From the NCBI RefSeq assembly GCF_020911925.1, contig NZ_CP087134.1, forward strand, positions 5,208,001 through 5,272,000: a DNA stretch of 64,000 nt, given 5' to 3'. The position numbers and the translations under genes were made by a program. Origin of the DNA: Flavobacterium cupriresistens. GTDB taxonomy: Bacteria > Bacteroidota > Bacteroidia > Flavobacteriales > Flavobacteriaceae. How positions within the stretch are numbered: the first letter of the stretch is position 1; each line of letters starts with the position of its first letter. This document shows, one piece after another, positions 12,459-51,670 of the stretch. Below the pieces are notes generated by a model, which was not told the DNA's origin, did no database searches, and was given only the letters and a program-made list of their open reading frames with translations.

Positions 12459-13400
12459 ATGACGATCACTCAATTACAATATGTGTTAGCTGTTGCCGAG
12501 CATAAAAATTTCACTCTTGCAGCCGAGAAGTGTTTTGTAACGCAGCCTACATTAAGTATGCAGATTCAAAAAATCGAAGAAGAACTTAACATTTTAATTT
12601 TCGACAGAAGTAAAAAACCAATCCAACTTACTGATATTGGTCATAAAATTGTAAATCAGGCCAAGAATATTGTAAATGAAGCCGACAGAATAAAGGATAT
12701 TGTAGAACAACAAAAGGGTTTTATTGGCGGTGAATTTCGTTTAGGGATCATTCCAACCATTATGCCAACGCTGTTGCCCATGTTTTTAAACAATTTCATT
12801 AAGAAATATCCAAAAGTAAAACTTCTTATTGAAGAGCTAAACACAGATGAAATTATTCTAAAACTAAAAAATGGTCATCTGGATGCTGCTATTGCCGCGA
12901 CACCACTTGAGGATGAAAAAATTAAAGAAATCGTTTTGTATTTCGAACCCTTCGTAGCGTACATACCAGAACATCACGCCAGCTTTGAGAAAACCGAAAT
13001 TGAGGTAGCCGACTTAAATCTGAATGAAATTTTACTTTTACAAGACGGGCATTGCTTTAGAGACGGGATTTTGAATTTATGCAAAAATGGATCTGACATC
13101 GATCAGACCAATTTTCAGATTCAAAGTGGGAGTTTTGAAACCCTGATAAAATTGGCAGACGAAGGCCTTGGTACAACGTTACTTCCGTACTTGCACACCT
13201 TAGACTTAAAAGATTCCGATAAACTGAAACTTCGTAACTTTAAGGAACCAAAACCAGCTCGTGAGGTAAGTTTAATTTACCCGAAAAGCGAATTAAAAAT
13301 GCAAATCATTGACGCCCTCAGATCTACAATCGCAGGTGTTGTAAAGGGAGCAATTGTTTTTCAGAATGTTCAAATCATCAGCCCGCTACAAAAAAAATAA
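12459..13400 (+). CDS. oxyR: LysR-type peroxide sensor OxyR
   Basis: Transcription factor that senses hydrogen peroxide. The N-terminal winged helix-turn-helix (MTITQLQYVLAVAEHKNFTLAAEKC; SMQIQKIEEELNILIFDR) is the LysR domain, and residues 91-300 form the periplasmic-binding-like sensor. The two redox cysteines that form the activating disulfide in E. coli are at exactly the same numbers here, Cys199 and Cys208, in GHCFRDGILNLC. Length 313 (usual 305-315). It is transcribed away from dps, its likely target, and ends in a palindromic terminator. Confidence 0.93.
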   Translation: MTITQLQYVLAVAEHKNFTLAAEKCFVTQPTLSMQIQKIEEELNILIFDRSKKPIQLTDIGHKIVNQAKNIVNEADRIKDIVEQQKGFIGGEFRLGIIPTIMPTLLPMFLNNFIKKYPKVKLLIEELNTDEIILKLKNGHLDAAIAATPLEDEKIKEIVLYFEPFVAYIPEHHASFEKTEIEVADLNLNEILLLQDGHCFRDGILNLCKNGSDIDQTNFQIQSGSFETLIKLADEGLGTTLLPYLHTLDLKDSDKLKLRNFKEPKPAREVSLIYPKSELKMQIIDALRSTIAGVVKGAIVFQNVQIISPLQKK

Positions 13401-13407
13401 GCGCATA

Positions 13408-13433
13408 AAAAAGGAGCCAATTGGCTCCTTTTC
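13408..13433. terminator. Bidirectional palindromic terminator
   Basis: AAAAGGAGCC AATT GGCTCCTTTT, a near-perfect palindrome between the converging oxyR and the small gene at 13436-13633. Confidence 0.8.
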
Positions 13434-13435
13434 TT

Positions 13436-13633
13436 TTATACTTTAATTAGTAGTAGACTTTGTTTTAATTCTGGTTTCTCAATAATGAAATTTAATAACC
13501 ATTCTTGTAATTGTTCCATTTCGTACGGTAACAGTGTTTTGATAGCTTTCTCTAATTCCTTACAGAAAAGTATCGGATCGAAACTTACTCTCTCAAGTAT
13601 TGATTTCGTGTAATCAAACATCATTTTAGACAT
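13436..13633 (-). CDS. Conserved small protein of unknown function
   Basis: 65 residues, no signal peptide. It begins MFDYTKSILERVSFDPILFCKELEKAIKTLLPYEMEQLQEWL after an initial MSKM. I recall this short helical protein as widespread in Bacteroidetes, with a fixed 'FDxxLFxKEL.KAxxxLLPxExExL' pattern, but no function has been assigned to it that I know of. The start could be any of the Met residues at 1, 4 or 5. It is flanked by the shared terminator and a 166-bp AT-rich space. Confidence 0.7.
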   Translation of the reverse strand: MSKMMFDYTKSILERVSFDPILFCKELEKAIKTLLPYEMEQLQEWLLNFIIEKPELKQSLLLIKV

Positions 13634-13799
13634 AATAAAATAAGATTTTTGGGGGTTATCTCTATTTTTAAACTCGCAACAAATTTAAACAAATATCAGG
13701 TCGAATGGTATATTTTAACTTATTTTTTTAAAAACTTTATCAACTAATACGTTTTCTTATTACATATAAATCAATATAGAATCATTCTAAACAACTCAT

Positions 13800-14465
13800 T
13801 TAAACCTTTTTAAAAGCCCTGAACATTTCTCTTTTTCCCGGTGGCCCCGCTAACTTCTCCACCGTAAATCCAACAGAAATCATACTTCTTTTAACAACTC
13901 CGCGAGCAGCGTATGTTACTAAAACGCCATTTGGCTTTAAACTATTGTACATTTTCTGAAAAATTTCGGTACTCCAAAGCTCCGGTTGCACCCGATATCC
14001 GAAGGCATCAAAGTAAATCAAATCAAAAATTTCAAAATCGTTTATTTCATCAAAAAATTGTTTCCTTTTGGTTAACGTAAAATCAGCGCTGATTTCAACT
14101 TCTGCATTCCATTCGCATTCATGCATTTTTTCAAAAACGGCAACATACTGATCTGCTTCCAATTCGGAAACATAATTCATTTCTAAAACTTCTTTTGCTT
14201 CAACCGGGTAAGCCTCTACTCCAACATAGTTTATTTTCTGTTGCTTTTGGGCCGATTCCAAAAAAGTAATAAAGGCATTCAATCCTGTACCAAAACCAAT
14301 TTCAAGAATACTGACCGCTTTATCTTCAAACAAGGAAAGTCCGTTTTTTATAAACACATGTTTCGCTTCCTGAATTGCACCATGCTTCGAGTGATAACAT
14401 TCATCCCATTCCTGCAAATGAATTGTGGTTGAGCCATCTAGCGTTTTAATTATTTCTCTTTTCAC
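13800..14465 (-). CDS. mnmD: tRNA (5-methylaminomethyl-2-thiouridine)(34)-methyltransferase
   Basis: A SAM-dependent methyltransferase that completes the mnm5s2U34 modification of tRNAs for Lys, Glu and Gln, the job done by the C-terminal half of the fused MnmC protein in E. coli. In Bacteroidetes it is a stand-alone gene, as here (221 residues). The DUF752 signature is clear: 'GFGTGLNAFITF' (SAM binding, near 58), 'IYFDAFGYRVQPELWSTEIFQKM' (near 152) and 'GPPGKREMFRAFK' at the C-terminus. 'YHSKHGAIQEAKHVFI' near 24 is also typical. Confidence 0.9.
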   Translation of the reverse strand: MKREIIKTLDGSTTIHLQEWDECYHSKHGAIQEAKHVFIKNGLSLFEDKAVSILEIGFGTGLNAFITFLESAQKQQKINYVGVEAYPVEAKEVLEMNYVSELEADQYVAVFEKMHECEWNAEVEISADFTLTKRKQFFDEINDFEIFDLIYFDAFGYRVQPELWSTEIFQKMYNSLKPNGVLVTYAARGVVKRSMISVGFTVEKLAGPPGKREMFRAFKKV

Positions 14466-36028: not shown

Positions 36029-36421
36029 GGGGTCGACTGGTTTTGACAGCAAGTCGAATTGAACAGTAAGCACGTCGAGCATTGAGACCTTGCTCGTAAA
36101 TATAAGATCTTACAATTTTACACGGCGAAAATAACTACGCTTTAGCTGCATAATCTGAATTATAGTAAGATTAGCCACGTCCCTATCAGATAGGGAAGCT
36201 GGATTCTCCTTGAAAGCCTTGGTTTGTGGCGGTCAGTTTAGGGGAACCGTAAAAATAAACCTAGATATCCATGAGCTTCGGGTGGATTTCGAAATTAAGA
36301 AGATAAGTGTTGAGTGGTTGTTCCTGACCTAGCTTAACAACGAAAATCCAATCAGGAAATAAACGTGTAGAAAGCTCTTTAGTTGCTTGTTTGGACCCGG
36401 GTTCGATTCCCGGCGACTCCA
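36029..36421 (+). ncRNA. ssrA: tmRNA (ssrA)
   Basis: Transfer-messenger RNA that rescues stalled ribosomes and tags the nascent chain for degradation. The acceptor stem pairs GGGGTCG at the 5' end with CGACTCC at the 3' end (G-C, G-U and A-U pairs, 7 bp). The T-arm reads GGACCCGGGTTCGATTCCCGG. The tag frame at 36124-36153 encodes GENNYALAA and then TAA, with ALAA as the protease degron. The CCA end is not encoded (ACT follows), so it must be added. The 3' end is also the insertion site of the mobile element that starts here. Confidence 0.97.
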
Positions 36422-37935
36422 CTGGAAGGGATGATTGAAAAATCATCCCTTTTTTTTTCGTATACCAAACAACCTTTTTCTTTCATTATCAAATGATTAC
36501 AAGATAAAATATTCATCATAGTGGGTGTTCGATATATGCCCTCTTGATAGTATAAATTGCTATCGAACACCAAGTTTACAAACTCTCTCTTTTGCATAAT
36601 ATCAGCATTTGAATACACAAACTTAAGATCAGTTAGCATTTCTATATTTTTTTCTAGGATAGCAAATGCACGATCCTCTTTTTGGTTTAACCGTTCAATT
36701 GCTCCTTTTAGAGGCTGAATTATACTATTAAAGTTCGTATGCCATCTATCGTAAGTTTCTTTAGAAATTTCATTCTTAATCCATTTCTCTTCTAGCGAAA
36801 ACATTTTTTCTTTAGTATCTTCCAAAAGTTGCTTCTTTTCAGCAAGTTTTCGCTCTTTAAATTTCAGATCATCTTCTAATGCATTGTTACAACTGCTTCT
36901 TATTTCCAATAACTTTTGCTTTGGAAGACTCATCAACTCACATATTTCTAAAAACTGATTATGTGCCTTTATTACACTGATATTATTGTGTTTTGAATTT
37001 TGACACTTATAATAGTAAAAGTACTTTCCTGATTTCCCTCTTGAGGGAGCACCTGTTAGAGGATTACTACAATGACATTTAAGAATTCCACGTAATGGCA
37101 ATTCTTCATCGATGACTGTCCTAGTTTTTTCAGGTTTTTTAATTTTATTTTGCACCATTTGCCAAGTACTGGTATCTATAATTGGCTCATGAATACCAGG
37201 GAAATTGCCTCCAGGATATTCCTTATATCCTTGGACTTTTAACATACCTGCGTAAACAGGATTTGTAAGTACTCTTTCAATAGAAGTATTTCCCTTGTTT
37301 TTAAACCCTAATTCAAATGCTTTTTCCTTAATTTTATACAATGGCATGTTTTTAAGAAAAGAATCATATATAAACTTAATGACCTTAGCTTCGCTTTCCT
37401 CAATAACTAGTCTACGTTCTTTTTGTTCCCCTTGTTTAATATAGCCAAATGGGGGTTTGATACCTATATATCGTCCTTCCTTAGCTCTGGCTGTATAAAG
37501 CCCTCCTCTTATTTTTATACTTCTATTAATATTGTCCTCCTCAGCAAGTAATAATTGTAGACCTGCTCTAAAAAAACTTCCTGGAGTATCATAATCGAAT
37601 GTGATACCCTCAGTAACACTAACCACCTGTATACTGTACTTTTTTTGCAGCATTTTAACCATACTCATCGCCTCACCTGCATTCCGACTGAATCTATCCA
37701 TTTGATCCACAAGCAGAAAATCTACAACTCTGTGGTGTTTAATAATAAACTCCTGCAACTTTATAAAATCTGGTCTATCAAAAGTTTTTGCACTTTTTCC
37801 TCGGTCAATAAAAGTATCAACTAATTCAACATTATTAAATTTTACCCATTGGTCAGTATACATCTCCTGTCTCTCAATCGAGCCATTGCTTTGTCCTAGT
37901 TGACTAAATCTTAAATACCTAATCGCCTTCTTCAT
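36379..37935 (-). CDS. Large serine recombinase (element integrase)
   Basis: 518 residues. Resolvase/invertase catalytic domain at 1-150 with the nucleophile Ser11 in RYLRFSQLGQSNGSIERQ and 'LVDQMDRFSRNAGEAM' near 75. The DNA-binding 'recombinase' domain (about 165-270) follows. Then comes a zinc-ribbon-like segment with CHCSNPLTG and YYKCQNSKH (about 287-320), and a coiled coil (about 350-430). Such enzymes catalyse site-specific integration, and excision with a partner. The last 25 or so codons run antisense through the ssrA terminator and 3' end (SGVAGNRTRVQTSN is the tmRNA T-arm read backwards). The native C-terminus in the unintegrated form may therefore differ. Confidence 0.9.
   Translation of the reverse strand: MKKAIRYLRFSQLGQSNGSIERQEMYTDQWVKFNNVELVDTFIDRGKSAKTFDRPDFIKLQEFIIKHHRVVDFLLVDQMDRFSRNAGEAMSMVKMLQKKYSIQVVSVTEGITFDYDTPGSFFRAGLQLLLAEEDNINRSIKIRGGLYTARAKEGRYIGIKPPFGYIKQGEQKERRLVIEESEAKVIKFIYDSFLKNMPLYKIKEKAFELGFKNKGNTSIERVLTNPVYAGMLKVQGYKEYPGGNFPGIHEPIIDTSTWQMVQNKIKKPEKTRTVIDEELPLRGILKCHCSNPLTGAPSRGKSGKYFYYYKCQNSKHNNISVIKAHNQFLEICELMSLPKQKLLEIRSSCNNALEDDLKFKERKLAEKKQLLEDTKEKMFSLEEKWIKNEISKETYDRWHTNFNSIIQPLKGAIERLNQKEDRAFAILEKNIEMLTDLKFVYSNADIMQKREFVNLVFDSNLYYQEGIYRTPTMMNILSCNHLIMKEKGCLVYEKKRDDFSIIPSSGVAGNRTRVQTSN
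36399..36424. other. Probable attachment site at the ssrA 3' end
   Basis: The T-arm and acceptor 3' strand of ssrA mark the chromosome/element junction: core genes end here and the recombinase gene begins. I infer that the crossover lies in this stretch. No second copy of the sequence was seen in the window, so the exact core is not defined. Confidence 0.5.
36426..36458. terminator. Terminator following ssrA
   Basis: AAGGGATGATT pairs perfectly with AATCATCCCTT around GAAA, followed by a T-run. It lies within the 3' part of the antisense recombinase reading frame. Confidence 0.85.
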
Positions 37936-42224: not shown

Positions 42225-42303
42225 AGATTGTATAAATAATGATCAAAAATATTTTTAAAAATGGAAGAAATAAATGAATTAATTATTCGCTTTATTGATT
42301 AAT

Positions 42304-43155
42304 ATGATAATGCAGTCCACTTACAAAGATGCTCTCTACAGTATACTGAAAAAAGAGCAGGAAATAAGTTTGGAATCCGTGCATGTAATTGATGAGTCCT
42401 ATCGCATGATTGTTTTTCTTCAAGATTTATTGTCAGGCATGAAAAAAAATGTATTGGATAATAATTTTACAGATGAAAATGAGGAAATTGAATTCTTCAG
42501 AATCATCAAACCTCAAATACTTGGAAAGTTGATTTATTACAACAAAATTTATAGAATAGAAACTTCTTGCCCCGTAAACAGTGGAAAGATGTATTATAAA
42601 TATTTTTCAAGTGAACTACAGCAGCTAAAGAATGAATACAAAGAACATATTTGTAATTCTGATTTTTACCGGTATTACCGCTCAGGGAGGACGGACAGAG
42701 ATCACGATTTTTTTAAATTAGGAAAAATAAATCTTAATACTGGCTTGAACAGTTTCATCTTTGAAGTCGATACTCAATTTTCTACTTATTACGATTATAA
42801 AGTTTCCAGAATCATTGCTGATGAATTGCTTTATAATTATTTAATTATTAAAATCAATCCTGTCGACAAACCTGATGTGATTTTGCAAAATTCCGAATCT
42901 ACCAAAGACGTTTTTTGGACAGAATCTAAAAACGCACTAATCGAATTGATTTATGCCCTATATGCATCTGGTGCAATTTCTAATGGAAAGGTTGGAATTC
43001 GTAAAATCAGTTTGGTTTTTCAGATATTGTTTCGCATTCAATTAGGTGATATTCACCATGCCTTTCACCGCATGAAAGACCGACCTGGTAATCGTACCTT
43101 ATTTTTAGACCAGCTCAAATCTTCCCTTAAACATTACATGGATAAAGATTTATAG
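42304..43155 (+). CDS. rteC: RteC family regulator
   Basis: 283 residues. It carries the RteC features 'FYRYYRSGRTDRDHDFFKLGKINL' (near 122-146), 'FSTYYDYKVSRIIADELLYNYL' (near 158) and the C-terminal 'VGIRKISLVFQILFRIQLGDIHHAFHRMKDRPGNRTLFLDQLKSSL' in pieces. In the Bacteroides element CTnDOT, RteC activates excision genes. A TTG at 42295 and ATG at 42304 are both possible starts; I used the ATG. It lies upstream of the HTH, DUF4099/3945 and topB genes, matching the CTnDOT order. Confidence 0.88.
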   Translation: MIMQSTYKDALYSILKKEQEISLESVHVIDESYRMIVFLQDLLSGMKKNVLDNNFTDENEEIEFFRIIKPQILGKLIYYNKIYRIETSCPVNSGKMYYKYFSSELQQLKNEYKEHICNSDFYRYYRSGRTDRDHDFFKLGKINLNTGLNSFIFEVDTQFSTYYDYKVSRIIADELLYNYLIIKINPVDKPDVILQNSESTKDVFWTESKNALIELIYALYASGAISNGKVGIRKISLVFQILFRIQLGDIHHAFHRMKDRPGNRTLFLDQLKSSLKHYMDKDL

Positions 43156-43209: not shown

Positions 43210-43419
43210 TACCCATACCTACCCATTGGTATAACATGCAGCAATCTAGTTTCTATCTCAATAAAAAACTAAAAGAGTACTAAACAAGGGATTTGTTGTT
43301 TGTGAAAATTTAAAAAACATGTTTTTCAATTGGTACACCTTGGCAGAAAATACTATTAGGAACATCCAATTTTGCATAGATCATTAATCGAAAGGTAGTA
43401 ATTGATAAAACATATCTAT

Positions 43420-43734
43420 ATGAATATTGACAGAATGGAATTTATAGCATGGATGGAGCGTATAATGAATCGCTTTGATCTATTAGGAGAACGCTTTGAG
43501 AATGCTCAGAAAAAAAAGGGCTCTATAGATGGGGAAGAATTGTTAGACAATCAGGATCTTTTTATGATGTTAAAGGTCAGCGCTCGCTCATTACAACGTT
43601 ACCGCTCTTCTGGTAAACTCCCATATTATACTATCAGTGGTAAGTTGTATTACAAATTATCCGACGTGAACCAGTTTATCCGTGAGAGTTTTTCCACGTC
43701 AGTAAAAAAAGTGAAGACAATCAAAGACAAATAA
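43420..43734 (+). CDS. Small helix-turn-helix protein, Xis-like
   Basis: 104 residues from the ATG at 43420 (an upstream TTG at 43402 is also in frame). A MerR/excisionase-like helix-turn-helix covers 'FMMLKVSARSLQRYRSSGKLPYYTISGKLYYKLSDVNQFI' in pieces (about 48-90). Its position between rteC and the DUF4099/3945 and topB genes is that of the small excision proteins Xis2c/Xis2d in CTnDOT. Directionality function is inferred. Confidence 0.75.
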   Translation: MNIDRMEFIAWMERIMNRFDLLGERFENAQKKKGSIDGEELLDNQDLFMMLKVSARSLQRYRSSGKLPYYTISGKLYYKLSDVNQFIRESFSTSVKKVKTIKDK

Positions 43735-43806: not shown

Positions 43807-45255
43807 ATGATGAGTGAACAAGAAAAAATCAAACAGGAAGCCCCAGAACAATTGACAGATATATTGTTAGTATTAAATAAAGAAAAGATGAAGATTGAGG
43901 CTGTAAAAGGAATTGATAAAAATGGTGAGTTAGAAACTGTTCCTGTTAACAAAAAAAATCAAAATCAATTTATGCGAGTTGACAAACAGGGAGATGTGTT
44001 TACTAACTTTTTTTCCAATTTCATAAGCCAGTTACAAAATCCGACTCGCTTCAGTTTTTTTAAAGTACCACAACTATTGACTATTGACATAGCTAAAGAC
44101 ATGCAAAAACAACTGGATAACCCTAATGTGGAAGGCGAAAAGCTTATGAAAGAGCATGAAGTTAAAGTAGAACTACCAAAAGAAGATAAAAAAGAAAATA
44201 TAGATACTATGGAAACAACACAAACAACAACAGAAACAAGTGAATATCGTTTCAAACCAGAACAAATCGATTGGGATACAATGTCAAATTTAGGTTTGAG
44301 TAAAGAAAAACTCGAAAAAATGAATTTGCTTGAACCATTGCTCAAAGGTTATAAGACCAATGAGCTAGTACCTATCAGTCTAAATTTAGGAACAGCCATT
44401 ACTCGCATGGATGCCCGTTTATCACTTCAAACTTCTGAGGATGGAAAAGTAGTTATGGCAATTCACGGCATACGAAAAGAACCACAATTGAATTTTCCGT
44501 TTTTTGGACATGAATTCAGCAAAGAAGATAAAGAGAGTCTACTTAAAACTGGTAATATGGGACGTGTGGTTGATCTTACAGTTTTCAAAACAGGTGAGCA
44601 AACGCCTTCAATTATTAGTGTAGACAGACTTACTAACGAACTTGTAGCACTACGTGTTGATAAAATAAAAATACCGGATGAAATCAAGGGAGTTAAACTC
44701 AATGAAGACCAGAAACAAACATTGATGGATGGTAAACCCCTTTTCATCGAAGGTATGATTTCCAAAAAAGGAGAATCATTTGATGCTACAGTTCAATTCA
44801 ATGCCGACAAGCGATATATTGAATTTCATTTCGACAGAACCAATACTGTTAGTCAAACACAAAATAATAATCAGCAGCAAAACCATGAAGCTCCGCGCAT
44901 ATTTCGAGGTAAAGAACTTGACGAAAACCAATATCAGCAATTTAAAGAAGGTAAAGTCATTTATGTGGATGGATTGGTAGACAAACAAGGAAAAGAGTAC
45001 AAAGGTTATGTGACATTTAATGTCAATAATGGTAAAGTTGATTTTTCATTCAGTAATCCAAATAGTGCAAAAATCCAACCAGCTGAAGAACATAAAACTC
45101 AGACAGCTGTTAATTCCGAAGGGAAAACTAATGAGGCAACCAAGTATAGTAAAGAGCCATTAAAATCAACACAAAAAGAGCCAGACAGTAAAAAACAACA
45201 GGAAGAACAAGAACAATCAGAAGGGCCAGTTAAAAGTAAGGGTAGAAAAATGTAA
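43807..45255 (+). CDS. DUF4099/DUF3945 conjugative-element protein
   Basis: 482 residues. The middle part holds the DUF4099-like 'FKPEQIDWDTMSNLGLSKEKLEKMNLLEPLLKGYKTNELVPI' segment (about 146-190). It is followed by two DUF3945 repeats: 'KGVKLNEDQKQTLMDGKPLFIEGM' near 295 and 'RGKELDENQYQQFKEGKVIYVDGL' near 366. The C-terminal 70 residues are Lys/Glu/Gln-rich and look disordered. Such proteins accompany topoisomerase III in Bacteroidetes conjugative elements. Corresponds in place to orf3 of the CTnDOT excision operon. Function unknown. Confidence 0.8.
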   Translation: MMSEQEKIKQEAPEQLTDILLVLNKEKMKIEAVKGIDKNGELETVPVNKKNQNQFMRVDKQGDVFTNFFSNFISQLQNPTRFSFFKVPQLLTIDIAKDMQKQLDNPNVEGEKLMKEHEVKVELPKEDKKENIDTMETTQTTTETSEYRFKPEQIDWDTMSNLGLSKEKLEKMNLLEPLLKGYKTNELVPISLNLGTAITRMDARLSLQTSEDGKVVMAIHGIRKEPQLNFPFFGHEFSKEDKESLLKTGNMGRVVDLTVFKTGEQTPSIISVDRLTNELVALRVDKIKIPDEIKGVKLNEDQKQTLMDGKPLFIEGMISKKGESFDATVQFNADKRYIEFHFDRTNTVSQTQNNNQQQNHEAPRIFRGKELDENQYQQFKEGKVIYVDGLVDKQGKEYKGYVTFNVNNGKVDFSFSNPNSAKIQPAEEHKTQTAVNSEGKTNEATKYSKEPLKSTQKEPDSKKQQEEQEQSEGPVKSKGRKM

Positions 45256-45274: not shown

Positions 45275-47347
45275 ATGAAAGTAGTAATAGCAGAGAAACC
45301 CAGTGTGGCTCGTGAAATTGCATCGATATTAGGTGCAACACAAAAAGAGGATGGCTTCTTAATTGGAAATGGCTATTATGTTACATGGGCTTTAGGGCAT
45401 TTGGTCGGATTAGCTATGCCAGACGATTATGGAATTTCAGGATTTCAAAAAGAATCCCTACCCATTCTACCTGATCCCTTTTTATTAAAAATACGCAAAG
45501 TAAAAAAAGAAAAAGGTTATGTTATCGATATAGGTGCCTCAAAGCAATTAAAAATCATCGAACAAGTCGTAAAGAAATGTGACAGTATTATTGTAGCCAC
45601 AGACGCCGGTCGTGAAGGAGAATTGATCTTTCGTTATATTTATGAATACTTAAACTGTAAAAAGCCTTTTCTGCGTTTATGGATTAGTTCCTTGACTGAA
45701 AAGGCTATAAAACAAGGATTTGAAAATCTAAAATCAGGTAGCGATTTTGATAGCCTCTATCAAGCTGCACAAGCAAGAAGCCGTGCTGACTGGTTGGTAG
45801 GCATTAATGCATCGCAGGCGCTTACTATTGCAGCGGGAAGCAGTATTTATACTTTGGGAAGAGTACAAACACCAACATTAGCATTAATCTGTCAACGGTA
45901 TCTGGAAAACAAAAATTTTGCAATTCAGAGGTACTGGCAACTACAATTGGCTCATCAAAAAGATTTTATTAATTTTAAAAGTCTTTCTAAAAATAAATGG
46001 AATGATAAGAAACAAGCTGAAGCGGTTTTAAAATCCATTGAGCGAAGTAAAACAACTATTGTTTCTTCCATAGAAAGCAAAACTATAACCGAGCAACCAC
46101 CTCTACTCTTTGATCTGACAGGTTTGCAAAAAGAAGCAAATAAAAAACTAAACCTTTCGGCAGATGAAACCCTTTCTATTGCTCAAAGTCTTTATGAAAA
46201 AAAGTTCATAACGTATCCAAGAACTGGAAGCAAATATATTCCAGAAGATATTTGGACTGAAATTCCGAACTTAATAAGAATATTGAAAACGAATGCTTCT
46301 TATAAAGAAATTATATCTACAATAAAATTAGGACGGTTGAACAAACGTATTGTCAATGACCTAAAAGTAACGGATCATTATGGATTACTTATCACCGATA
46401 AAATACCGTCAGCATTATCCGCAAAAGAAAATGCTATCTACAATATGATTGCATTACGTTTATTAGAATCGGTTTCCGAAGCTAGCGTGAAAGAAATAAC
46501 AGATATAACAATACAGGTTTTACATTATGATTTCTCCGTTAAAGGTTTTAAAGTTTTGCAAACTGGATGGCGAAACATTAAAGGTAGTTTTTTAAATGAG
46601 GACAGTGAATATCTTCAGGATCTGCCCGAACTAAAAATTGGAGATGAACTGAAAATTAAAGATGTAACTGTTTTAGAAAAGAAAACTAATCCGCCAGTTT
46701 TATATACAGAAGCAGGACTTCTATCAGCTATGGAATCAGCTGGAAAGAAAATTGAAAGCGAAGAAGAAAAAAAGGCTATAATAAGTATTGGCATAGGTAC
46801 ACCAGCAACTAGAGCATCAATTATAGAGATCCTTTTTGCCAGAGATTATATTCAAAGAAAGAATAAATCCCTTATACCAACAGAAAAGGGATTACAGGTT
46901 TATGAGCTGGTCAAGGATAAAATGATTGCCAATGTTGCTATGACTGGTCAATGGGAAGTGGCTTTGCAAAAAATAGAAAATAATCAAGAGCAAGCCGGAA
47001 CGTTCCAAAAAAAAATTGAGGATTATGTAGTTTCAATAACTCAAGAACTTCTTAATACTTCCATAGCAATTGAAAATTTACCCGCTCTTATTTGTCCTAA
47101 ATGTAGAAGTCATCAATTGCTCATCAAAGATATCCTTGTCAAATGCCCTGATGAAACTTGCAAATGGGTTCAATTCCGCAATGTTTGTGGAGTTCAGTTG
47201 AGTATAGATGATGTAGCTAATTTAATCAATAAAGGAAAAACCTCTCTTATCAAAGGAATGGAGAGTAAGTCTGGAAAGAAATTCAATGCTTATATCGTGC
47301 TTACTACGGATGGAAAAACTGTTTTTGAGTTTGAAAGAAACAAATAG
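45275..47347 (+). CDS. topB: DNA topoisomerase III of a conjugative element
   Basis: Type IA topoisomerase that passes single strands through a transient break. The Toprim domain (MKVVIAEKPSVAREIASILG, with 'VATDAGREGELIFRYIYEY' near 108) and the active-site Tyr314 in KFITYPRTGSKYI are intact. At 690 residues it ends in a Cys-containing zinc-ribbon-like segment (CPKCRSHQ...CPDETC, near 609-635) and a DUF3945-like end repeat. In CTnDOT the equivalent gene (exc) is in the excision operon. Starts 19 bp after the DUF gene. Confidence 0.93.
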   Translation: MKVVIAEKPSVAREIASILGATQKEDGFLIGNGYYVTWALGHLVGLAMPDDYGISGFQKESLPILPDPFLLKIRKVKKEKGYVIDIGASKQLKIIEQVVKKCDSIIVATDAGREGELIFRYIYEYLNCKKPFLRLWISSLTEKAIKQGFENLKSGSDFDSLYQAAQARSRADWLVGINASQALTIAAGSSIYTLGRVQTPTLALICQRYLENKNFAIQRYWQLQLAHQKDFINFKSLSKNKWNDKKQAEAVLKSIERSKTTIVSSIESKTITEQPPLLFDLTGLQKEANKKLNLSADETLSIAQSLYEKKFITYPRTGSKYIPEDIWTEIPNLIRILKTNASYKEIISTIKLGRLNKRIVNDLKVTDHYGLLITDKIPSALSAKENAIYNMIALRLLESVSEASVKEITDITIQVLHYDFSVKGFKVLQTGWRNIKGSFLNEDSEYLQDLPELKIGDELKIKDVTVLEKKTNPPVLYTEAGLLSAMESAGKKIESEEEKKAIISIGIGTPATRASIIEILFARDYIQRKNKSLIPTEKGLQVYELVKDKMIANVAMTGQWEVALQKIENNQEQAGTFQKKIEDYVVSITQELLNTSIAIENLPALICPKCRSHQLLIKDILVKCPDETCKWVQFRNVCGVQLSIDDVANLINKGKTSLIKGMESKSGKKFNAYIVLTTDGKTVFEFERNK

Positions 47348-47582: not shown

Positions 47583-48170
47583 ATGAAAAACATTTTTACG
47601 ATAATTTATTTTGTTTTTACATTTTTATTGTTCACTTCATGCAAGACTTCACGCCCATATACTGAAGACATGAAAATTGAATTAAAAAGAATGTTCGATA
47701 AGGATCAAGAGCTATTAACTTTTGACGAGAAAAGATATAATGATAAAAAATATATGGATTCTATGAATGTTGAAGGAGAAAAAGTGATCAGAAAAAATTG
47801 TGAGGTTGCTAAGAAATATTTTAAAAAATATTCTTTTCCAGGTTTAAAAGAAAATGGCAAGGAAGCCGCAATGAATTTCTGGCTAATTGTTCAGCATTCA
47901 GACCATGATGTCGTTTTTCAGGAGAAAGTTTTAAAAGCCATGAAAAAGGAATATAAGAATAAGAATATAAGCCCTAGAAATTATGCTTATTTATATGATA
48001 GGGTAGCAAAAAATAAAGGAGATAAACAATTGTATGCCACACAAATTGATTGGAGCAGTGGAAAGCCTTTACCACTCCCATTAAAATATCCTGAAAAGGT
48101 GGAAGAATTAAGAAAAGAAAAAGGGTTAGAGCCATTAAAAGAATATCTAGACTCGTTTTTAAATAAATAA
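47583..48170 (+). CDS. DUF6624-like lipoprotein
   Basis: 195 residues from the ATG at 47583 (an upstream ATG at 47559 would precede the signal). Lipobox 'FTFLLFTSC' (Cys20). The second half has 'MNFWLIVQHSDHDVVFQEKVLKAMK' and 'SPRNYAYLYDRVAKNKGDKQLYATQI', the pattern of the DUF6624 family: helical, with a conserved W...Q.SD...Q. It lies 45 bp before the double-glycine peptide gene, so it may be part of that operon. Role unknown. Confidence 0.72.
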   Translation: MKNIFTIIYFVFTFLLFTSCKTSRPYTEDMKIELKRMFDKDQELLTFDEKRYNDKKYMDSMNVEGEKVIRKNCEVAKKYFKKYSFPGLKENGKEAAMNFWLIVQHSDHDVVFQEKVLKAMKKEYKNKNISPRNYAYLYDRVAKNKGDKQLYATQIDWSSGKPLPLPLKYPEKVEELRKEKGLEPLKEYLDSFLNK

Positions 48171-48215: not shown

Positions 48216-48398
48216 ATGAAAAAATTAAATGCATTAAACCTAGGAAAAGGTTTAAACAGAGAAGAAATGAGAGCTATTTCGGGAGGAATTGATTTTGAAA
48301 GTGGTGGTTATTGTACCTGCGGTACAAAGCCAGCTGTACTTACACGTTGTGGCTGCGTTGCTTTCTGTAATGATAGCTGTAAAGACAAAGTTGACTAA
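48216..48398 (+). CDS. Double-glycine-leader peptide with six cysteines (bacteriocin-like/RiPP precursor)
   Basis: 60 residues. The leader MKKLNALNLGKGLNREEMRAISGG ends in a double-glycine site, the 'LxREEMxxIxGG' form known from Bacteroidetes natural-product precursors. The predicted core of about 36 residues (IDFESGGYCTCG...) contains six Cys spaced C-x-C-x9-C-x-C-x3-C-x3-C, enough for three disulfides. There is no hydrophobic export signal of the Sec type, so export would need a C39-type transporter. The two genes after it encode a thioredoxin and a VKOR-thioredoxin fusion, fitting disulfide formation. The activity (antimicrobial, signal or other) is not known. Confidence 0.82.
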   Translation: MKKLNALNLGKGLNREEMRAISGGIDFESGGYCTCGTKPAVLTRCGCVAFCNDSCKDKVD

Positions 48399-48408
48399 GA
48401 GTTTATTA

Positions 48409-48439
48409 ATTGGAGCTGAAAGTATCAGCTCCAATTTTT
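48409..48439 (+). terminator. Hairpin between the peptide gene and the maturation genes
   Basis: Perfect 11-bp stem (ATTGGAGCTGA with TCAGCTCCAAT), 5-nt loop and T-run. It should end most transcripts just after the peptide gene and let a minority read on, giving more peptide than enzyme. Confidence 0.8.
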
Positions 48440-48516
48440 AATCCGTTTAAAAAAACAATAAAGGTTCTCAAATAGAATTTGATAGTTATTAATTATATTT
48501 AAGTAAAAAATAAAGC

Positions 48517-50085
48517 ATGAAAAATATTTTATTATTAGTTCTATTTTTATCAGCTCATTTATGTTGTTCGCAATCTAAACAGGTTACTATTATTGGCAAT
48601 ATGCCACAACAATATGGAGGCGAATATCTAAGTTTTTCTAAGCCTATAGGAAAATATACCACAGAATCATCTTATATTAATAGTAAAGATAATGCAGTAA
48701 TTATAAACGATAAATTCATAAAAACTTTAGATATTGCAGTACCAGGGATTATTTATGTTTATGAAAAACCTTTCAATGGAATTATTAGTACTCGTTTTTT
48801 TGCAGAACCAGGAGACACTATAATCTTAGAAAGACAAAATGGAGAAATTATTTTTAAAGGAAAGAATGCAATCGTAAATAAAATGTATAGTGATGTCAAA
48901 TTAGGGCACGTAGCATTTAATGATGAAGTCTATGATATTTTTAAAAATACTAATGATGCAGATAAAATACTATCGAAAATAAATAATAAAGAAAAAATAT
49001 ATTTACAGCATTACAATGAACTTTTCTTAAAAAAACAAATTTCAAAATCTTGTTTAGAATATACTAAAGTATTAATGGAACAGTCTATAGATGGTCTAGC
49101 ACTGGGTATTGCAAGGGATGAAGAATTTAGAAAAGAGCAAAAGATGCTAATTACAAAAGAAGGAGCCAATAAAATTGTTGATTATATTGTTTTAAAATAT
49201 ATCCCCTATAAAGAAGAAAACTTGAGATCACTTTTCTTTTTGGGTCTAATGAAAAAAAGCGCTTCCTATTTAGAAAAACAATCTTTAAAAGAAAATAAAA
49301 AAATTACCAGATTTTGGAACCAATTTGACACTATATTTAAATCTGAAACAAAAAACTTAGGAGTTATTGATTATTTAGAATCAGATGATTATAAAGAAAC
49401 TGCAATAGGACAATATTTTCTTAGCTTAATAAAAAACTATGACAACGAGAAATCAATAAAATATAAAGATTTAATTATGGTTTATAAAGCTTTTGTTGAA
49501 AAATTTCCGAATAGTCCTTACATTATACCACTTTCTGAAAGCATCATGAACGCCGCTTTAGATAATTTAAGTACTAGTGCAACCAATGTTGCAAAATCAG
49601 AACCAAACACAGCATTAGGAAATCTTGCCATCTATGGCACAACATTAGAAACAGTGGGTACAGCACCTTTTGCGCAACCCAATCAATCATTAGCTGATGT
49701 CCTTGCTGAAAAATTCCCTACCCAAGATTTGTTTGTTGATTTATGGGCTACTTGGTGTGGGCCTTGTCTTATGCAATTCCCATACAATAAAGATTTGCAT
49801 TCTTTTTTGGAAACCAAGAATATAAAAACACTATACGTTTCACAAGATAAAGAAGAAGATATAACAAAATGGCAAAAATACATACAGGACTATAATCTTA
49901 CTGGTTACCATTTTTTAGCAGATAAAGCCTATGTGGAAAAGTTCATCAATCCGTTAACCGCGTATATTCCAAGGTATTTTATATATGATTCCAAAACTAA
50001 AAAACTTAAGCCATTAGAAGGCTACCCAAAAGAAAAAGAAAAATTTTATACTCAAATAGCCAAAGCTTTACCAACAAAACAATAA
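48517..50085 (+). CDS. TlpA-like thioredoxin-domain protein
   Basis: 522 residues with a signal peptide (MKNILLLVLFLSAHLCCSQ; the CC could also serve as a lipobox). A beta-rich N-terminal part of about 100 residues and a helical middle (about 130-330) precede a C-terminal thioredoxin fold. The redox motif is WCGPC with Cys414 and Cys417 in DLWATWCGPCLMQFPY. A cis-Pro-like 'TAYIPRYFI' is near 485. This architecture (N-terminal DUF4369-like, then TlpA/AhpC) is typical of Bacteroidetes periplasmic redox proteins. It ends 7 bp before the VKOR-fusion gene, so both act on the same substrate, probably the Cys-rich peptide. Confidence 0.85.
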   Translation: MKNILLLVLFLSAHLCCSQSKQVTIIGNMPQQYGGEYLSFSKPIGKYTTESSYINSKDNAVIINDKFIKTLDIAVPGIIYVYEKPFNGIISTRFFAEPGDTIILERQNGEIIFKGKNAIVNKMYSDVKLGHVAFNDEVYDIFKNTNDADKILSKINNKEKIYLQHYNELFLKKQISKSCLEYTKVLMEQSIDGLALGIARDEEFRKEQKMLITKEGANKIVDYIVLKYIPYKEENLRSLFFLGLMKKSASYLEKQSLKENKKITRFWNQFDTIFKSETKNLGVIDYLESDDYKETAIGQYFLSLIKNYDNEKSIKYKDLIMVYKAFVEKFPNSPYIIPLSESIMNAALDNLSTSATNVAKSEPNTALGNLAIYGTTLETVGTAPFAQPNQSLADVLAEKFPTQDLFVDLWATWCGPCLMQFPYNKDLHSFLETKNIKTLYVSQDKEEDITKWQKYIQDYNLTGYHFLADKAYVEKFINPLTAYIPRYFIYDSKTKKLKPLEGYPKEKEKFYTQIAKALPTKQ

Positions 50086-50092
50086 CAAATAA

Positions 50093-51670
50093 ATGTCCGA
50101 AAATTTCTCCTTTCTTTTTCATTATTTGAAAAAGGAAAACATAACTATAGATGAAAGAGAATTTACTTTTCAAGTTCAATCACATTCTGATTATCCTTCT
50201 TTACTAGCAGTAAGCGACACTTTAAGTTTTTTTAATATCAACAATCTGGCAACTAGAATAGAAAATGAAGATTTAGAACATTTGCCTGATAATTTTACAG
50301 CTTTGATTAGTGATGAAAATAAAAATCCCTTTTTAGCATTTGTAGAACGTAACCAAAGTGATTTTCGATATACTCAAGATGCAAAGTCTGTGCAAATTAG
50401 TAAAGGAGCATTTTCAGAACGGTTTCAAAACATTGTTTTATTAGCTGAAAAAGAAGAAAACGAATTAAAAATAAACAATAGTAAAAAAGTATTGATTTTT
50501 GGTTCAATTCTTTTAGGGATTGTTTATTTTTCATCAATTTTTATAACAGGTTTTTCATTACTCCAACTTTTGATTGTTCTTTTTGCGTCCATGGGAGTTT
50601 ATTTGTCTATTGAGGCAATTTCTCATGAATTTGGTATAAAAACTAAATTTTCGGAAGCGGTTTGCACCATTACTACTAGTGCTGATTGCGGTGAAGTCAT
50701 TAATTCTAAAAAATCCAAATACTTTGAATGGATTAGCTTTAGCGACTTTAGTATTGCTTTTTTTGGTTCTCAATTATTAGCGTTGCTTTTCTTTACGATT
50801 TCCAACCAATTAGAAAGTTTTTATGCTATAACCACCCTGCTGTTGTTATCAGCAGTTCCAATTACTATTCTGTCTATTTATCAGCAGTGGTTTGTAGTCA
50901 AAAAATGGTGTCCAATCTGTATGACAATAATAGTCTTGATTTATGCAGAATTAATAAGCCTTTTGGTGTTTAATTCATTTCATTTAATTGTGAATTTACT
51001 AGTCGTAAATTATTTTGCCTTGTCGTTAATAGCTTCTTATTTATTGACTGTTTATATCAAACAGATTATAAAAAAGAACTTTGAATTGGAAGATAATGTA
51101 ACTGAAGGTAATCGATTTAAAAGAAAATATTCATTGTTCAAAATGGCATTATTAGATTCAAGAACTATAGAAAGTAAAGACAATACTTCAAATAGCATAG
51201 TACTTGGAAATCCCGAAGCCAGACTAAAAATAACAGTAGTTTCGAGTCCCTTTTGTGGTCATTGCAAAAATGCTCATGAAATTATTGATGAAATTTTAAA
51301 GAGATATAATGATAAAGTTTCAATTACTATTCAATTCAATTATAATCCTAAGTTTTCAGATGAAAAAAGTTTAATTGTACATCAAAAATTAATTCGTCTT
51401 TTTTTAGAAAAAGGTCAAGATGCTTTTGTAAAAGCGTTACATATTTGGTTTGAAGAAAAAAACATAGATAAATTAGATTCTCCAGATACGTCAGTTTGTA
51501 GCGATTTAAAAATAGATGAATTACTTCATGAACAATTTCAATGGAACCAAGAGAATAAATTAACGTTTACACCTGCAATAATAATAAATGGCTACCTTTT
51601 TCCAAAGCAATATGATAGGAATGATTTAATCTACTTTATTAATGATTTGGAAGATGATGATGAATTTTAA
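50093..51670 (+). CDS. C39-like/VKOR/thioredoxin fusion protein
   Basis: 525 residues in three parts. Residues 1-115 resemble a C39 peptidase-like domain ('QVQSHSDYPSLLAVSDTLSFFNINNLATRI'), but no Cys is present at the catalytic site. About 128-335 are a membrane VKOR domain with loop cysteines Cys191 and Cys199 (AVCTITTSADCGEVINSK) and the WCPIC pair Cys273/Cys276. About 370-525 are a thioredoxin/DsbA-like domain with CGHC (Cys388, Cys391). VKOR with a fused thioredoxin makes disulfides in exported proteins using quinone. A dead C39-like domain could hold the GG leader. It follows the thioredoxin gene in one operon. Confidence 0.85.
   Translation: MSENFSFLFHYLKKENITIDEREFTFQVQSHSDYPSLLAVSDTLSFFNINNLATRIENEDLEHLPDNFTALISDENKNPFLAFVERNQSDFRYTQDAKSVQISKGAFSERFQNIVLLAEKEENELKINNSKKVLIFGSILLGIVYFSSIFITGFSLLQLLIVLFASMGVYLSIEAISHEFGIKTKFSEAVCTITTSADCGEVINSKKSKYFEWISFSDFSIAFFGSQLLALLFFTISNQLESFYAITTLLLLSAVPITILSIYQQWFVVKKWCPICMTIIVLIYAELISLLVFNSFHLIVNLLVVNYFALSLIASYLLTVYIKQIIKKNFELEDNVTEGNRFKRKYSLFKMALLDSRTIESKDNTSNSIVLGNPEARLKITVVSSPFCGHCKNAHEIIDEILKRYNDKVSITIQFNYNPKFSDEKSLIVHQKLIRLFLEKGQDAFVKALHIWFEEKNIDKLDSPDTSVCSDLKIDELLHEQFQWNQENKLTFTPAIIINGYLFPKQYDRNDLIYFINDLEDDDEF

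Follow-up and report, generated by a model that had tools for sequence, protein, structure and literature searches.

A mobile gene cassette of Flavobacterium cupriresistens for a probably secreted six-cysteine peptide, which may be oxidised on the cytoplasmic side before its export

A three-gene cassette within a mobile element of Flavobacterium cupriresistens raises the question of how, and on which side of the inner membrane, a short cysteine-rich peptide receives its disulfide bonds. The cassette lies in a stretch of 64,000 nucleotides (the window), which corresponds to positions 5208001-5272000 of the 5.74 Mb single-contig genome (G000:C1). Its genes are consecutive on the + strand and encode a peptide (48216-48398), a TlpA-like protein (48517-50085) and a fusion protein of a C39-like, a VKOR and a thioredoxin domain (50093-51670). 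A preliminary description had reported this gene order inside a mobile element, together with a double-glycine (GG) leader and six cysteines (Cys) in the peptide, all of which was confirmed here. We are highly confident that the three genes constitute a dedicated maturation cassette for a disulfide peptide. The best overall explanation, for which belief outweighs doubt by a little, is that the cassette is mobile and matures a bacteriocin-like peptide rich in disulfides, which would be oxidised from the cytoplasmic side before export.

The peptide gene encodes a precursor of 60 residues, whereby a GG leader of 24 amino acids (48216..48287, +) that ends in SGG is followed by a core of 36 amino acids (48288..48395, +) with six Cys spaced 1-9-1-3-3. 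Protein searches for relatives of the cassette proteins yielded one close relative of the peptide (P0002), one relative of its leader (P0073) and many relatives of the TlpA-like protein, the latter from a search that scored just the 7999 candidates sharing most words. P0002 is 68% identical and keeps all six Cys and their spacing, which is otherwise unique to the window peptide among the 259 peptides collected at fusion loci. P0073 carries nearly the same leader in front of an unrelated four-Cys core (E 0.02); likewise, the leader at locus L199 is close to the window leader, those at L045 and L200 are less so, and the cores differ. P0002 and a TlpA homologue (P0037, 54% identity) are both listed on 3652-base contigs of the source 'lgn', and from this matching contig size they are probably linked. 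The Cys pattern, which the preliminary description could not match to a named family, still lacks one: no NCBIfam or Pfam family exceeded its curated cut-off, the best match being PF14406 to the leader only (E 0.034), and a family assignment was thus rejected. The window peptide did not match NF047798 or TIGR04149 either (E up to 0.1), and P0002 scored just below the cut-off of the TIGR04149 'rSAM-modified RiPP' leader model (20.7 vs 25 bits).

Between the peptide and the tlpA-like gene, folding revealed a 12-bp hairpin (48408..48436, +; -18.2 kcal/mol, z -6.7). Stable hairpins of unrelated sequence follow 10 of the 12 peptide genes that were folded, including that of the window (z -3.3 or lower vs simple shuffles), and none was present after the stop codon of the L043 gene and of the second L045 peptide gene. 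Such a hairpin would fit a larger amount of peptide than of enzyme transcript. The terminator scan found no terminator, probably since the hairpin stem takes up part of the T run, and a sigma-70 promoter scan was no better than chance; Bacteroidota promoters differ from the sigma-70 type. The TlpA-like protein (48517..50085, +) matches Redoxin PF08534 above the cut-off and no NCBIfam TlpA or ResA model at cut-off. It has the thioredoxin fold, the CxxC motif (WCGPC) and the export expected of TlpA/ResA-like proteins, the export being judged by eye from a Sec-type N-terminus, because of which the protein should be periplasmic.

The fusion protein starts with a C39-like domain without any Cys (residues 1-123; 50093..50461, +). 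It is followed by an extra transmembrane helix A, predicted from the model of the protein and from the hydropathy of 51 aligned sequences (residues 130-152; 50480..50548, +), the VKOR core with C191, C199, C273 and C276 (residues 155-297; 50555..50983, +), and a DsbA/ScsC-like thioredoxin domain with a CGHC motif formed by C388 and C391 (residues 355-525; 51155..51667, +). The six redox Cys are invariant in 51 of 51 aligned sequences, and K270, W272 and R344 are nearly invariant. Both the fold and the four catalytic Cys of VKOR are present. The N-terminal domain has the C39 fold without the catalytic Cys and is hence called C39-like: 42 of the 51 sequences contain no Cys in this domain and nine contain one, and within positions 1-19 and 60-99 no column holds a Cys in more than three of the 51. 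In the VIA lists many papain-like folds are named below the C39 rows, and the domain might also belong to a family beyond those listed. In public records the protein bears the name 'vitamin K epoxide reductase family protein'; one split gene is listed there as 'C39 domain-containing'. The VKOR fold, the four catalytic Cys and a thioredoxin-like domain in the chain are shared with the Synechococcus VKOR (4nv2), which carries its thioredoxin-like domain in the same chain, and with the VKOR-thioredoxin (VKOR-Trx) proteins of Bacteroidota, but the fusion differs in its extra N-terminal helix and C39-like domain, and its charges are reversed compared to the latter.

The fusion was matched in 50 of the 199 genomes searched, its own included, whereby the match in G163 is a 62-residue thioredoxin-only match and that in G017 consists of fragments. 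Named genomes were also scanned, which confirmed the fusion at 427 places; the best 80 of these fall into Flavobacterium, Tenacibaculum, Chryseobacterium, Aquimarina, Dokdonia, Roseivirga and other genera. Furthermore, fusions occur on eight plasmid records from Emticicia, Spirosoma, Hymenobacter, Aureibacter and Parabacteroides, six regions of which were read. The Parabacteroides records L191 and L192 were rejected as proof of plasmid carriage, as L191 has housekeeping genes such as lysS and gmk and the records may be chromosome pieces. L192 (Parabacteroides distasonis NZ_OY725766.1, from the gut) combines a fusion with a six-Cys GG-type peptide, DUF4369, a LanC-like gene, two glycosyltransferases and a C39 exporter. 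Among the viral contigs searched, no relative of the fusion was found. A C39 match is present in 27 of the 28 fusion-match genomes within range of the C39 search, with the thioredoxin-only G163 as the exception, and 16 of the 43 genomes with a C39 match have no fusion match.

The fusion gene is usually accompanied by genes for GG peptides, for a C39 ABC exporter and for HlyD, and at window-type loci TlpA and often DUF6625 or DUF6734 genes are present as well. From 98 fusion loci (the window uncounted, at least three genomes appearing twice), 84 offered 7 kb on either side, and within this distance a C39 ABC exporter was found at 67, HlyD at 64, a same-strand TlpA at 28, DUF6625/DUF6734 at 20, and no exporter at 17. 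With the window included, 78 of 99 fusion loci yielded 259 GG peptides, of which 216 were left after removal of near-copies. As a control, the same GG-peptide rule was applied to 43 loci picked for C39 exporters away from any fusion (L171 yielded no exporter reading frame), which gave 55 non-redundant candidates at 26 loci, some of them plainly not leader peptides. At least two Cys are present in 215 and at least four in 210 of the 216 VKOR-linked peptides (located up to 8 kb from the fusion), compared to 23 and 7 of the 55 control candidates. Even Cys counts, in turn, occur in 196 of the 215 VKOR-linked cores with at least two Cys and in 21 of the 23 such controls, so that an even Cys number was rejected as a hallmark of the fusion; it is the number of Cys and not its parity that separates the two sets. 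In the loci read, such fusions adjoin about two hundred different Cys-rich peptides. The preliminary description had proposed a probably exported Cys-rich peptide with dedicated redox enzymes, and had regarded a lack of homologues beside redox genes in other genomes as a refutation; GG peptides beside redox genes proved to be abundant, which supports the proposal. The window peptide is probably secreted and bacteriocin-like. A peptide at the VKOR-fusion locus L047 passes the NF047798 leader_Chryseo model for a 'bacteriocin-like protein' (37.2 vs 23.5 bits). Single fusions can be surrounded by 12 to 18 GG peptides, as seen at L057 from a same-genus relative and at L095, L097, L098, L104, L112 and L118 from Tenacibaculum.

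In the model of the fusion, six long helices place both ends, all soluble parts and all redox sites on one side of the membrane. Over the 51 fusions the mean number of lysine and arginine residues (K/R) on this redox side is 4.0 in the loop, 2.41 before the CxxC motif and 6.67 after the last helix, as compared to 0.14 and 0.63 on the other side. The corresponding values are 2.0, 0.07 and 1.0 vs 2.07 and 3.71 for 14 VKOR-Trx proteins without the N-terminal domain, and 0.89 and 0.33 vs 1.22 and 1.67 for nine stand-alone VKORs. The stretch after the last helix is longer in the fusions (25 residues vs 15.6 in the 14 controls) and also denser in K/R (0.267 vs 0.064 per residue). The charge difference, calculated as other minus redox side over the core loops, ranges from -9 to -2 in 51 of 51 fusions, from 2 to 7 in the VKOR-Trx proteins except L222 (-6), and from 1 to 5 in the stand-alone VKORs except L219 (-6) and L215 (-1); a rank test that ignores relatedness gave a p of about 4e-10. 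The comparison proteins stem from the 30 loci returned by a phylum-wide search, of which L208 and L216 contributed no reading frame, so that 28 VKOR proteins were read. The rank test excluded five proteins (L207, L211, L217, L223 and L230), in which the VKOR core is preceded by more than 110 residues, while L222 stayed among the 14 and L219 among the nine controls. L211 and L230, the only two of the 28 with a C39-like domain, both have the extra helix and inverted charges; L217 has no C39-like match and an ordinary charge pattern, and L207 (in which Ser-Thr replaces the loop Cys) and L223 gave poor alignments and were counted neither way. The six plasmid-record fusions, which come from other orders, lean the same way, some of them weakly (redox vs other side, L192: 5, 3, 3 vs 1, 2; L232: 3, 2, 4 vs 1, 2).

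Applying the positive-inside rule to this charge pattern, it is likely that the redox sites of the fusions face the cytoplasm, opposite to those of ordinary VKORs, and oxidation would therefore precede export. Inverted VKORs are known from archaea and from engineered cytosolic systems. In this orientation the C39-like domain stands where the leader still exists. Two families of quinone-linked oxidases were sought in the genome, which has no DsbB match and no VKOR beyond two fusions. The preliminary description had let both redox proteins act after export; the TlpA-like protein should indeed be periplasmic, as judged by eye from its N-terminus, but for the fusion this is doubtful, as its charges argue for a cytoplasmic position of the C39-like, VKOR and thioredoxin parts.

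The window leader has I, M and L at positions -4, -7 and -12, which corresponds to the C39-recognition pattern: the account of the C39 protease LahT in PMC6363468 has these three leader positions filling a groove. The C39-like domain of HlyB (3zua) has the same fold, likewise without the catalytic Cys, and is described in PMC8277102 as an inactive domain that recruits and tethers the cargo, whereby it sits on an ABC transporter with a large RTX cargo and the window domain on a disulfide oxidase with a small GG-leader cargo. We infer, with less confidence than for the cytoplasmic face, that the C39-like domain of the fusion binds the leader. In the proposed mechanism, a peptide that has just been synthesised would be bound by this domain through its leader, three disulfides would be formed from its core Cys by the DsbA-like domain, and the electrons would go to quinone via VKOR, with all three steps taking place at the cytoplasmic side of the inner membrane. 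Export would follow through one of the C39 ABC exporters of the host and its associated HlyD, the most likely exporter being that at 1.379 Mb, which would cut the precursor after GG and release the core, and the periplasmic TlpA-like protein would proofread or isomerise the exported peptide. Extended to the phylum, the fusions of Bacteroidota could be cytoplasm-facing, leader-guided disulfide synthases, in which an inactive protease domain would read the same leader as the exporter and an added helix would have flipped the VKOR. They would form a phylum-wide route for variable Cys-rich peptides that is mobile on conjugative elements and plasmids and is found here without an exporter, a generalisation that we put forward tentatively and with slightly more doubt than belief. 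At L060, a 337-residue protein (12966-13979) encoded downstream of a fusion and a DUF6734 gene starts, by eye, like the C39-like domain and ends in hexapeptide repeats (PF00132); judging from this protein, modifying enzymes of other kinds may also make use of the docking domain.

There is no C39 exporter in the window, and the preliminary description had postulated one outside of it. The host genome indeed has four. The exporter at 1.379 Mb (G000:C1) comes after the one further VKOR fusion that the genome contains, and after GG peptides of 50 residues (four Cys) and 78 residues (six Cys). It is 79-81% identical to the exporters beside window-type cassettes in G112, G089, G053 and G014, compared to 29-50% for the other three host exporters. 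Locus L199 (G251), which by its neighbours (compared by eye) is the same chromosomal locus as that at 1.379 Mb, has the order VKOR, peptide, TlpA, fusion, exporter, HlyD; its fusion is 54% identical to that of the window and its exporter 87% identical to that at 1.379 Mb. Also L198 (G077), again by eye the 1.379 Mb locus, contains a TlpA-VKOR cassette, the TlpA of which has 35% identity to the window protein. Because this exporter or its ortholog lies in cis with such cassettes elsewhere, the C39 ABC transporter at 1.379 Mb is the most likely exporter in trans for the window peptide, as judged from these gene comparisons. Two other exporter regions of the host have contents of their own. L041 (G000:C1:1304000-1323000) combines a C39 exporter and HlyD with a lantibiotic dehydratase (LanB-like, PF04738/PF14028) and ten non-redundant GG peptides, which have their leaders in common and carry short, mostly Cys-poor cores, and beside the 2.92 Mb C39 exporter a gene (L039, 7178-8512) encodes a 444-residue protein with a GG-type leader start and no Pfam match.

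Several observations weigh against cytoplasmic oxidation followed by export through the 1.379 Mb transporter. The cytosol is reducing and the TlpA partner is periplasmic. Positive residues close to the catalytic Cys might have a functional role, given the near invariance of K270, W272 and R344, and PMC11208910 describes positive residues on the outer side of human VKORC1. The VKORs used as controls are small in number and in part closely related (L212-L214, L218 and L225 share a genus code), and the inverted L222 and L219 have no C39-like domain, both having an extra hydrophobic N-terminal sequence. Leader position -7 is hydrophobic in just 52 of 216 VKOR-linked leaders vs 36 of 55 controls, from which it might be that leader recognition differs in much of the family. 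An odd Cys number occurs in 19 of the 215 cores with at least two Cys, and odd counts (5, 7 and 9 Cys) recur in window-type loci. Among the host HlyD proteins, that of the 5.47 Mb exporter and not that of 1.379 Mb is closest to those of three of the four relatives. An ordinary VKOR topology, with a periplasmic thioredoxin domain that oxidises the peptide together with TlpA after export and leader removal, is a serious if clearly less probable possibility: known bacterial DsbB/VKOR enzymes, as presented in PMC11208910, re-oxidise periplasmic DsbA, and the TlpA partner has its Sec-type N-terminus, but the charges are opposite to those of ordinary VKORs and the extra helix would place the C39-like domain in the periplasm, where no leader should remain.

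With oxidation before export as the preferred reading, it could also be that the maturation is the same and the product is a signal instead of a toxin. We consider this unlikely. No immunity gene was recognised, similar leaders carry dissimilar cores, and some Tenacibaculum and Flavobacterium loci contain 12 to 18 GG peptides; yet variable cores fit antagonism at least equally, and the nearest characterised kind, the bacteroidetocins, are toxins that in the account of PMC6671954 also come without obvious immunity genes. It is quite improbable that another modification (a lanthionine, a radical SAM-made link or a sugar) is the main feature and the redox genes merely keep thiols in order. Here, DUF6625/DUF6734 genes near 20 of the 84 fusion loci, which we read as glycosyltransferase-like (function unknown according to Pfam), the Parabacteroides cluster with its LanC-like gene and two glycosyltransferases, and the near-threshold TIGR04149 score of P0002 speak for such a modification, but the Pfam scan, which covered 24 window proteins, all of them to the right of 28.2 kb, revealed no enzyme of this kind, neither a radical SAM gene among all 24 nor a LanB/LanM-type enzyme in the cassette or its scanned neighbours. 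S-glycosylation of an odd Cys, following the logic of glycocins such as sublancin, was rejected as a general rule, since odd Cys numbers are not linked to DUF6625/DUF6734 (3 of 34 with vs 16 of 180 without, p = 1). Still a little less probable is a decayed or stranded fragment, the peptide of which is never secreted for want of an exporter. The window has no exporter and no transfer gene was recognised in its scanned proteins; against this, the three frames are open with the catalytic Cys kept, P0002 preserves the Cys pattern, 17 of the 84 other fusion loci also have no exporter within 7 kb, and the host keeps a compatible one.

The closest known systems are the bacteroidetocins of Bacteroidales (Nat Commun 2019). 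As far as PMC6671954 describes them, they resemble the window locus in having a GG leader, an even Cys number, an adjoining thiol oxidoreductase gene and no obvious immunity gene; loss of the oxidoreductase weakens the toxin activity, and export is by a C39-type ABC exporter. According to the same source they differ in having four Cys, a leader of 15-16 and a core of 42 amino acids, compared to six, 24 and 36 here, and in a five-helix membrane protein with the exporter in the same region, compared to a C39-like/VKOR/DsbA-like fusion with the exporter apart. As the window has the leader and the oxidoreductases without an exporter, and as its peptide does not have these dimensions, the window locus was not assigned to them. 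The passages of PMC6671954 on the system name a thiol oxidoreductase and make no mention of VKOR. Glycocin clusters, as outlined in PMC12457901, likewise have a Cys-rich peptide, a C39 exporter and disulfide bonds, but no glycosyltransferase was recognised in the window cassette, some relatives of which add glycosyltransferase(-like) genes. Among the matches listed in the open-licence literature, neither a C39-like/VKOR fusion nor peptides of this class were found to be described, which speaks only weakly for novelty; a phylogeny of the VKORs (PMC4555120) does not mention C39, peptidase, fusion or Bacteroidetes. Bacteroides is said to lack a general machinery for disulfide formation (Dutton 2008, cited in PMC6671954). 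If the fusion is a peptide-specific oxidase, it can serve as a marker in searches for a large and so far unexplored repertoire of peptides. If oxidation precedes export, this would be a new leader-directed route to disulfides in a reducing compartment, with a practical use for producing such peptides in laboratory hosts. The split into a mobile cassette and a resident exporter also makes exporter sharing directly testable.

The cassette lies downstream of the RteC-DUF4099-TopB genes of a conjugative element. On the left, a tmRNA gene (36029..36422, +; ARAGORN) is abutted and overlapped at its 3' end by the gene of a large serine recombinase (36379..37935, -; PF00239 and PF07508 above and PF13408 slightly below the cut-off), and this junction is the likely insertion point of the island. 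An attachment-site pair derived from the tmRNA 3' end was rejected, as this end has no repeat within the window and no second exact copy in the genome, the sole two-mismatch copy lying 144 kb away. RteC, a regulator of Bacteroidota conjugative elements (42295..43155, +; PF09357, 8e-73), is followed by the element core of an HTH_17 protein (43402..43734, +), a DUF4099/DUF3945 protein (43807..45255, +) and DNA topoisomerase III (TopB; 45275..47347, +). These core genes were recognised by family scans, the HTH_17 gene having homologues in the same order in relatives, and with RteC, TopB and DUF4099 the element possesses a CTnDOT-like core. No transfer or relaxase gene was recognised among the 24 scanned proteins, no right end could be located for the element, and PADLOC gave no defence match for four neighbouring proteins. 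The DUF4099, HTH and TopB proteins of related elements are 65-74% identical to those of the window and RteC 29-93%, whereby the HTH gene was matched in some but not every relative element locus.

A DUF6624 lipoprotein-like gene (47583..48170, +; PF20329, 8.5e-15, scanned from 47559) is located directly 5' of the peptide gene, 45 bp upstream, and might be a passenger or a self-protection gene. It was not found to recur with the system, no neighbour being so labelled at 18 loci. The cargo starts after the TopB gene, and the sequence behind TopB, compared by eye, varies among the 12 loci (of 13 read) that reach past it. Because the content after TopB differs between related elements, the cassette occupies a site where the elements of relatives carry other cargo. 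As reported in PMC6671954, bacteroidetocin B likewise sits in the variable part of its own element.

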